NCBI RefSeq assembly: GCF_016446475.1
Contig: NZ_JAEHFP010000001.1
Span: 124,001-188,000 of the forward strand
Direction of reading: 5' to 3'
Source of the DNA: Paracoccus binzhouensis
GTDB lineage: Bacteria > Pseudomonadota > Alphaproteobacteria > Rhodobacterales > Rhodobacteraceae
Length of the DNA stretch: 64,000 nucleotides
Below, piece by piece: positions 8,226 to 25,240 of this stretch (positions are counted from its first letter, which is position 1; each line of letters begins with the position of its first letter). A model generated the notes under the pieces. That model saw nothing but the letters and a program-made list of their open reading frames with translations. It searched no databases and was not told where the DNA came from. Made by a program: the position numbers and the translations under genes.

Positions 8226-8258
8226 GAGTATTTGGGGAACGAAGAAGCCGGGGCGCGG
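8226..8258 (+). repeat. Dispersed repeat, copy 1 (GAGTATTTGG-type)
   Basis: GAGTATTTGGGGAACGAAG followed by AAGCCGGGGCG lies 35 bp after the metallopeptidase stop. It shares the arrangement GTATTtGGGGaAcGAAGAAGCCGGgGCG with copy 2 (23622-23654) and the core with copy 3 inside the MOSC gene (24949-25001). It lies between converging genes. Whether it acts in termination or mRNA stability is unknown. Confidence 0.6.
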
Positions 8259-8293
8259 CTGCGGGAGGATTGGGAAACGGTGAAGGGACAGTC

Positions 8294-23654: not shown

Positions 23655-24491
23655 TCAGCAGTCCAGCAGGGCGGCGCGGAACGCGGGGTCGGACAGCACC
23701 ACCTCTTTCGTTCCCAGCTCCGCCGCGCGCGACAGCGCCCGCGAGGTCTGGATCTGCGCGAATTCGACCGCCTGCGCCAGGCTGCGGCCTTGCCCCAGCG
23801 CCGCGGTGATCAGCCCGGCGAGCAGGTCTCCGGTCCCGGCCAGCGCCACCGGCAGATGCGGCGTCGGATGGCGCGTCAGCCCCTGCGGCCCCAGGATCAC
23901 GCTTTCCAGCAAGCCGGGCGCGGTCTCGCGCAGCCGGCAGCCGGTGACGATCAGCTGGGCCTCGGGCGCCATGCGCAGCCCTCGCGCGGCGCGGTGGATG
24001 TCGGCCAGCTCGGCGATGGGCTGGCCGGTCAGCCAGGCGACCTCGAACGGGTTGGGCGAGGCGATGTCGGCCATGGGCAGCAGCCGGTCGCGGAAGGTGT
24101 TGGCGATCTCACGGGGCACGTAGAGGCCCGGCTGCTCGTCGCCCAGCACCGGATCGCAATAATAGCGCAGGCGCGGGTTTGCCGCCTTGGCGCGGGCGAC
24201 GAAATCGGCGGTCAGCCGCGCCACCTCGACCGAGCCGATATAGCCGGTCAGCAGGAAATCCGCGCGCTCGGGCAGGCCGCGGTCCCAGAGGCCCTGCAAC
24301 AGGTCGGCGAAGAAATCGCCGGGCAGTGGCCGGCCGCGCAGGCTGGGATAATCCGGGGTGTTGGAAAAGATCACCGTCGGGACCGGCGCCACCTCCAGCC
24401 CCGCCGCCAGAATCGGGAACACCGCCGCCGAATTGCCGACATGGCCCATGACCACCTGGCTCTGGATCGAGATCACCAGCGGGCGGGTCAT
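23655..24491 (-). CDS. pdxY: Pyridoxal/pyridoxine kinase, PdxY-like
   Basis: This 278-residue ribokinase-fold enzyme phosphorylates pyridoxal in the vitamin B6 salvage pathway. The N-terminus MTRPLVISIQSQVVMGHVGN, the block YCDPVLGDEQPGLYVP, SPNPFEVAWLTG and the catalytic-base motif LAGTGDLLAGLI fit PdxY/PdxK. It is translationally coupled to the upstream MOSC gene by a 4-base ATGA overlap. The assignment to PdxY rather than PdxK is by overall resemblance. Confidence 0.9.
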   Translation of the reverse strand: MTRPLVISIQSQVVMGHVGNSAAVFPILAAGLEVAPVPTVIFSNTPDYPSLRGRPLPGDFFADLLQGLWDRGLPERADFLLTGYIGSVEVARLTADFVARAKAANPRLRYYCDPVLGDEQPGLYVPREIANTFRDRLLPMADIASPNPFEVAWLTGQPIAELADIHRAARGLRMAPEAQLIVTGCRLRETAPGLLESVILGPQGLTRHPTPHLPVALAGTGDLLAGLITAALGQGRSLAQAVEFAQIQTSRALSRAAELGTKEVVLSDPAFRAALLDC

Positions 24492-25240
24492 GCACCGCCC
24501 TCCAGCCGCCTGGACCAGTCCTCGACCCGGCCGCTCTCCAGCCGGCGCACGGCATAGCGCCGCCAGCCCTCGGCCAGCACGTCCAGCGCGGCGATGCCCT
24601 GCAGCTCGCCCAGGTTCAGCCGGTCCACGTAGAGCGCATGCCAGAGCCGGCGCAATGTCCAGTCGGGCGCCACGCGGTCGATCCGCTCCAGCCGGTCGCC
24701 GGGGGCGACGATGCCGGGCTGCAGGACGCGGTAATACCAGCCGGTGCGGCCGCTTTGCTGCACGCGCCGTGCCATGTCCCCGACGCCGAAGCGGCGGTTC
24801 AGCTTCCAGCAGGGCTGCCGGCCCTGCGAGACCTGCACCAGGGCCGAGCCGAGCCGGAAGATGTCGCCAACCGCCACATCCGCCTCGGTCAGCCCATCGG
24901 TCGAGATGTTCTCGCCAAAGGCGCCGGGCGTCTCCAGAAGCGCCTCGATTTCTTCGTTCCTCAAATACTCCACGGGGGGCCGGGGGTGTGAAACCCCCGG
25001 TGCTTCGGCCGGGCGCGGCCGCCCAAGTTCCGCGCGCCAGGCCGGGTAATGATCGAAGGGATAATGATGCACGGCCTTTTCCGGCCCGCCATGCACGCGG
25101 CGGTCGGCCTGTTCGTCGCCCTCGAACCCCTCGGGCCCAAGCGCCAGCGGCCGGTCCGCCGGGCGCTTGTCGATGCCGCTTTTCTGGTCGCTGCCCGGCA
25201 GCGGTGCCGCCTTGCCCGTCAGCAGGATGATCTGGGCCAT
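24488..25240 (-). CDS. MOSC domain protein, YiiM-like, with an inserted segment encoded by a dispersed repeat
   Basis: This 250-residue protein has a YiiM-type MOSC domain: EGFEGDEQADRRVHGGPEKAV, AFGENISTDGLTEADVAVGD and VQVSQGRQPCWKLN with the conserved Cys144. YiiM-type proteins depend on molybdenum cofactor and detoxify N-hydroxylated bases such as 6-N-hydroxylaminopurine. Between the HYP motif and AFGEN there are about 45 residues here against about 21 in E. coli YiiM, recalled from memory. The extra part, about residues 74-104, is encoded by repeat copy 3. It lies just before the AFGEN active-site region. The start is the ATG at 25238-25240; the frame is open far upstream but antisense to nasT. 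The gene is divergent from nasT. Confidence 0.88.
   Translation of the reverse strand: MAQIILLTGKAAPLPGSDQKSGIDKRPADRPLALGPEGFEGDEQADRRVHGGPEKAVHHYPFDHYPAWRAELGRPRPAEAPGVSHPRPPVEYLRNEEIEALLETPGAFGENISTDGLTEADVAVGDIFRLGSALVQVSQGRQPCWKLNRRFGVGDMARRVQQSGRTGWYYRVLQPGIVAPGDRLERIDRVAPDWTLRRLWHALYVDRLNLGELQGIAALDVLAEGWRRYAVRRLESGRVEDWSRRLEGGA
24949..25001 (-). repeat. Dispersed repeat, copy 3, inside the MOSC coding sequence
   Basis: Read on the minus strand there is first a hairpin (CCGGGGGT / ACCCCCGG, 24980-25000), then CCCCCGTGG, then GAGTATTTGAGGAACGAAG and AAAT. The GAGTATTTGnGGAACGAAGAA core equals copy 1 except for one base. It is translated in frame as about residues 81-98 (PGVSHPRPPVEYLRNEEI). 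Confidence 0.7.

Follow-up and report, generated by a model that had tools for sequence, protein, structure and literature searches.

In-frame capture of palindromic repeats by protein-coding genes is already known from Rickettsia and from several REP-rich genomes. Intragenic REPs and RPEs encoding 20-30 residues have been described (PMC3733652), and REPs themselves are defined as multi-copy, extragenic and palindromic sequences near gene ends (PMC12306157; for further background see PMC2267715 and PMC5107571). The main text of PMC3733652 and PMC12306157 names neither Rhodobacter nor Paracoccus. A literature search found no description of this gene-end element of Rhodobacteraceae, though one may exist in subscription papers, and a literal search for the sequence in papers gave nothing relevant-looking among the matches listed. 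The Paracoccus element described here resembles Rickettsia RPEs and intragenic REPs in being a dispersed repeat, with a clear hairpin in about half of its copies, that would be translated in frame in a conserved protein, and in belonging to a family that is mostly extragenic and located downstream of coding regions. It differs from both in that it has no GTAG or CGTC tag, carries a conserved core and tail after its hairpin, and shows in its in-gene copy a dialect match to the host genome, a feature that goes unmentioned in sections 6 and 15 of PMC3733652. Unlike RPEs, which occur in many genes, the Paracoccus element occupies a single target gene, yiiM, in the census of its own genome and in a sample of 127 places.

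The REP/REPIN systems with RAYT (TnpAREP) are likewise composed of short gene-end repeats with about a hundred copies and at least two sequence types in a genome. In contrast to these, the Paracoccus element has no tag and a clear stem in about half of its copies, and the Y1_Tnp domain (PF01797) is absent from its own genome and was detected in two of ten insert-bearing and one of four other Paracoccus genomes. Like intrinsic terminators, the element lies just after stop codons in the sense orientation, in part as facing pairs and with some GC hairpins, but in the two window copies that were scanned it carries a GRRTATTT-nnn-tail arrangement instead of a T-run. DNA uptake sequences are dispersed short motifs with lineage dialects. 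The element shares with them the dispersed short motif and the lineage-specific variants and differs in that nearly all of its censused copies lie outside genes.

The element in the yiiM reading frame

The window, which is the whole stretch of 64,000 nucleotides of Paracoccus binzhouensis DNA that was analysed, encodes a 250-residue YiiM-type MOSC protein on the minus strand (24491..25240; start at 25240, stop at 24488-24490). The MOSC/YiiM identity proposed earlier is borne out by the translation, by the Pfam domains MOSC and YiiM_3-alpha (131.1 bits, and 50.1 bits against 22.7, the curated cut-off being passed) and by a match to the solved YiiM structures 1o65 and 5yhi. The invariant MOSC cysteine, described as C119 of gsYiiM in the structure paper, is C144 in the window protein, and the QPCWKL motif is retained in all 15 inserted rows of the alignment described below. 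The same paper describes the alpha1-beta5 loop as contributing to the floor of the cofactor cavity, and from the order in the sequence this loop would be the one that bears the insert; the predicted structure of the window protein, made with one relative, has a mean pLDDT of 32.6. The downstream gene (23655..24491, minus strand), whose P. ferrooxidans orthologue is annotated as a pyridoxal kinase, overlaps yiiM by 4 nt, the stop codon of yiiM and the start codon of the kinase gene being joined in an ATGA at window positions 24488-24491. This overlap suggests that the two genes may be translationally coupled. Two genomes hold two yiiM genes each, of which a single one carries the insert (G025 with loci L035 and L093, G076 with loci L036 and L092).

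Within yiiM the repeat consists of a GC hairpin with an 8-bp stem in the fold (24980..25000, minus strand), which codes for residues 81-87, followed by the conserved 19-nt core GAGTATTTGAGGAACGAAG (24952..24970, minus strand), which codes for residues 91-97. The earlier observation of a hairpin and core lying in this reading frame is thus confirmed for residues 81-97. Both lie inside a 72-nt segment of 24 codons (24944..25015, minus strand) that is missing from the short YiiM forms, as judged from spans and alignment with edges uncertain by a few codons. GTAG and CGTC tetranucleotides are absent from both strands of this segment. The stability of the hairpin is unremarkable for such GC-rich DNA (z = 0.63), no Rfam family scores above its gathering score (the best, chrB-b, reaches 23.4 bits against 36.5 and lies on the opposite strand), and a terminator scan calls no site on the own strand of the two window copies, where the hairpin has no directly following T-run.

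The core had been said to occur twice elsewhere in the window, a count that holds in part. One good copy with 1 mismatch lies on the plus strand at 8226..8245, outside any coding frame and with no clear hairpin, its longest stem being 4 bp. The second is at most degenerate and follows directly, at about 8265..8286 (plus strand, from the alignment); at this locus GAGTATTT is intact in P. denitrificans, P. ferrooxidans and P. versutus. No match to the core is expected by chance in a window of this kind (0 in 100 shuffles).

Presence and absence of the insert

YiiM was detected in 66 of the 125 Paracoccus genomes and in 22 of 295 genomes of the family, the own genome being counted among the latter. 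For the alignment 86 loci were taken, of which three have no usable frame (L086, L206 and L208) and two are incomplete (L094 and L207), leaving 81 rows from Paracoccus (63) and other genera (18). Fifteen of these carry the insert and 66 do not, so that the segment is absent from 48 of the 63 Paracoccus rows and from all 18 rows of other genera. Two loci outside the alignment, L086 and L094, have the HHYP-FGEN span of short forms, and among the weaker YiiM matches that were left out, those in G022, G050:C1, G098:C59 and G108 split around the insert as the match does for short forms. The commonest insert adds 24 residues to the loop that precedes AFGEN, the other inserted rows varying in length. 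The distance from HHYP to FGEN amounts to 54 residues in the window protein. Of 40 short Paracoccus forms measured, 39 have a distance of 30, with 12 of 66 loci unmatched by the span script, and the alignment with E. coli YiiM (1o65) breaks at the position of the insert; the extra spacing of about 24 residues given in the earlier note was therefore correct. An exact span of 54 residues is found at nine loci (L031-L038 and L041), which correspond to eight genomes since L031 and L037 apparently stem from one P. versutus record.

In a tree calculated without the insert columns, 13 of the 15 inserted rows form one Paracoccus clade with a support of 99/94; of the other two, L046 is placed elsewhere with no firm support and the position of L045 is not resolved. 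An AU test does not reject one clade of 14 or of 15 inserted rows (p 0.40 and 0.44), the latter including the row with an unrelated repeat, and the tree is thus compatible with one insertion event or with more. The repeat DNA is identical in kind in 12 of the 13 species of the main clade. The idea that the segment was captured would fail if it were ancestral or encoded by different DNA in close homologues; the opposite is found, since 66 of 81 rows are without it and the same repeat DNA recurs in those 12 species. The inserted form is hence the derived state.

The insertion site itself shows variation. Hairpin and core are retained at the yiiM site in twelve species, and in one genome (G014) the hairpin has been doubled in frame. 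A second genome (G072) carries an enlarged insert from which the AT core has been lost, so the element is dispensable there, and a third (G032) has only a tail-like remnant at the site. A fourth (G082) contains at the same site an unrelated double-hairpin insert with a CCCTCGATGGG loop and the sequence GCCCTCGATGGGC (positions 1501-1602 of L334, inside yiiM). This insert matches six other places in its genome with E values from 7e-12 to 0.0017, of which about four resemble the same double hairpin; by eye, a stop triplet lies just upstream at three of them. The other two places (L343 and L345) look like weak or coding matches. Either the G082 insert was captured in this loop as a second event, or it replaced an earlier insert there.

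The repeat family outside genes

The P. binzhouensis genome contains 97 places within 2 mismatches of GAGTATTTNNNNAACGAAGA and none that match the reversed pattern. The element is laid out as GRRTATTT, three free bases and a tail some 7 nt long with GAA at its end, and the region upstream of the cores is GC-rich and variable. In a census that covered 94 of these places and used a codon-usage model to recognise coding-like frames, the same-strand stop codon of such a frame lies at most 300 nt upstream of 72 copies (median 40 nt) and a convergent gene end lies downstream of 50. A stem of at least 6 bp is present within 45 nt upstream of 44 of the 94 cores versus 15.4% of shuffles, and one of at least 8 bp upstream of 16 versus 1.2% of shuffles; about half of the copies, the yiiM copy included, have a clear hairpin. 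To call the element REP-like, as had been done, is therefore apt only in a loose sense, that of copy number and extragenic gene-end position, given the missing GTAG/CGTC tag, the lack of a transposase in the own genome and a stem of at least 6 bp in only those 44 copies.

Two of the 94 censused copies lie in a two-sided coding frame, one in yiiM and the other in a ribonucleotide reductase gene, and none of the remaining three places does. The ribonucleotide reductase match (L148) was rejected as a chance match without an insert, its protein being nearly equal in length to the family profile and its DNA having no stem above 4 bp. Two other candidates for in-gene copies were likewise discarded, L318 because no two-sided coding frame was found and no stem exceeds 4 bp, and L297 because on reading it lies before a start codon. 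The count of intragenic copies that had been called for thus gives yiiM as the sole genuine case in the own-genome census. At least two sense frames are open through each of five own-genome copies of the yiiM subtype.

The yiiM hairpin subtype, at up to 2 mismatches, is present in 79 of 125 Paracoccus genomes, the reversed controls giving 0. The general form CCCCCGG-NNTATTT occurs in 89 of 149 family genomes and its reversed pattern in none, which, together with the 72 of 94 own copies after stop codons, upholds the earlier link of such sequences to gene ends in Rhodobacterales. In the sample of 127 places, taken mostly from other Paracoccus and family genomes with some own-genome places included, 66 lie behind a same-strand stop codon (median 43 nt) and 23 have no detected gene end to either side; two yiiM orthologues are the only copies inside genes. 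The coding score was trained on the window and is weaker elsewhere: one of the yiiM copies (L128) was initially missed and recovered at a lower threshold. A search with the 19-residue repeat peptide matched 112 of 125 genomes, many rows lying within long open frames. In another search, two open-frame hits of the repeat peptide, in G070 and G116, have negative coding scores and were set aside as most likely antisense or spurious.

Among the places listed for other genera, tails appear by eye to be uniform within a genome. Three genomes (G251, G134 and G237) contain multiple tail dialects side by side, and in G251 the tails seem by eye to be linked to the heads GAGTATTT or GGGATATTT. Between the convergent genes dnaJ and metK a facing pair of elements is found (L106 at about 1400-1550; L327, L328 and L329). 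The facing copies vary together: P. versutus and P. ferrooxidans share a dialect, and P. pantotrophus and the own genome each have a different one. Paracoccus sp. SMMA_5 has neither copy. The extragenic family looks to be a large one, some genomes having several tail dialects.

Silent-site conservation and tail dialects

Across the 12 species, divergence at fourfold-degenerate sites is 0.045 in the 13 codons of the element versus 0.320 in the rest of yiiM, and all 202 of the 13-codon windows elsewhere in the gene are more divergent than the element, with a minimum of 0.112. Other copies of the repeat in Paracoccus genomes conserve this stretch as well, and translation alone is therefore not the reason for its conservation.

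After TATTT, the tail consists of a free three-base spacer and a genome-specific stretch, and it was compared between the yiiM copy and those extragenic copies that have a CCCCCGNGG head and start with GGATATTTnnnCA[N]. The variable base N is T in 11/11 and 12/12 extragenic copies of G045 and G086 (23/23), C in 10/10, 8/8 and 1/1 copies of G052, G076 and G038 (19/19), and A in 14/14, 11/11 and 9/10 copies of G058, G074 and G014 (34/35) as well as in the 1/1 copy of G000. The yiiM copy bears the tail letter of its own genome in all five testable genomes, a sample in which G045 and G086 are sisters and G038 offers a single extragenic copy for comparison. When labels were shuffled among ten genomes with relatedness uncontrolled, 2 of 20,000 shuffles were as good as the real pairing. 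As near relatives share dialects, inheritance accounts for part of this match. The yiiM copies of G025 and G058 have no own-genome copy within 1 mismatch at the dialect positions among the places listed for that comparison; the exact 20-mer of the G058 yiiM copy is present at five other places in G058.

Origin and possible role of the in-gene copy

Most likely yiiM holds a gene-end repeat that was captured in frame in a loop of YiiM, is translated, and still behaves at the DNA level like the extragenic copies. A dispersed gene-end element with an upstream GC hairpin would have inserted before AFGEN in an ancestor of the Paracoccus clade, probably in a single event. Two or three of the sense frames of the element are without stop codons and the loop is variable among YiiM proteins, which would explain how the gene stayed open, the element then giving, on translation, a proline-rich loop about 24 residues long. 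The in-gene DNA has nevertheless stayed nearly fixed at its silent sites and its tail carries the dialect of the host genome, as in the extragenic copies. With the Y1 transposase absent from the own genome and from eight of the ten insert-bearing genomes, a RAYT route is unlikely. As the force behind the dialect match, gene conversion between copies or a shared trans-acting factor is favoured over chance.

That an ordinary coding segment merely resembles the repeat is next to impossible. Chance matches to the core do occur, as in the ribonucleotide reductase gene of the own genome, but in yiiM the hairpin, linker, core and tail all fit a subtype found in 79 of 125 genomes with reversed controls of 0, and most orthologues are without the segment, which refutes coincidence. 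A peptide-level benefit, in which YiiM would have taken up the PGVSHPRTPVGYL loop for its function close to the cofactor cavity, is quite improbable. The residues are conserved across 12 species, and the alpha1-beta5 loop described at the cavity floor in the structure paper would by its inferred identity be the inserted one; selection on the peptide, however, leaves the silent-site conservation unexplained, the loop is wholly different in G072, G032 and G082, and copies at other places in the genomes conserve that sequence too.

The element could also be a neutral passenger that was captured once and then inherited, with compositional or hairpin constraint lowering the silent divergence and shared ancestry producing the dialect match. 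The one clade that holds 13 of the 15 inserted rows, the dialects common to near relatives and the retention of the gene in G072 after loss of the core all agree with such a history, which is a serious contender and still rather doubtful: a fourfold divergence seven times below that of the rest of the gene is not given by shared ancestry alone, and linked changes at this fixed site (GAACGAAG versus AAACGGAG; CATG versus CACG versus CAAG) match genome-wide variants. Alternatively, the in-gene copy may be a working regulatory site that acts as nucleic acid (an attenuator, a protein roadblock or an RNA decay site) on the yiiM-pyridoxal kinase pair. Its sense orientation, which is that of the gene-end copies, its conserved silent sites, its dialect match and the 4-nt overlap with the downstream gene are in keeping with this; the terminator scan nevertheless calls nothing at the element on its own strand and the element is lost or unrecognisable in G072 and G032, and a regulatory site is unlikely on balance.

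Capture of a gene-end repeat that has since stayed in step with its extragenic relatives is accordingly the preferred reading. A speculative extension of it, with a small chance of being right, is that the tail is the recognition site of a fast-evolving trans-acting factor, either protein or RNA, and that the yiiM copy is a working site doubling as coding sequence. Such a factor would set the dialects of each genome and keep the copies across the Rhodobacteraceae in step. The locus offers a clean case of capture, for which 48 Paracoccus rows without the insert serve as comparison, in a group that is tractable, that of Paracoccus denitrificans/versutus. Since yiiM is conserved and the position of its repeat is fixed, the in-gene copy permits a direct test of how repeats stay alike, separating gene conversion from re-insertion and from selection by a shared recognition factor. 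If a trans-acting factor does read the tail, the yiiM copy would report the dialect of its genome at a place in a conserved gene that does not change.
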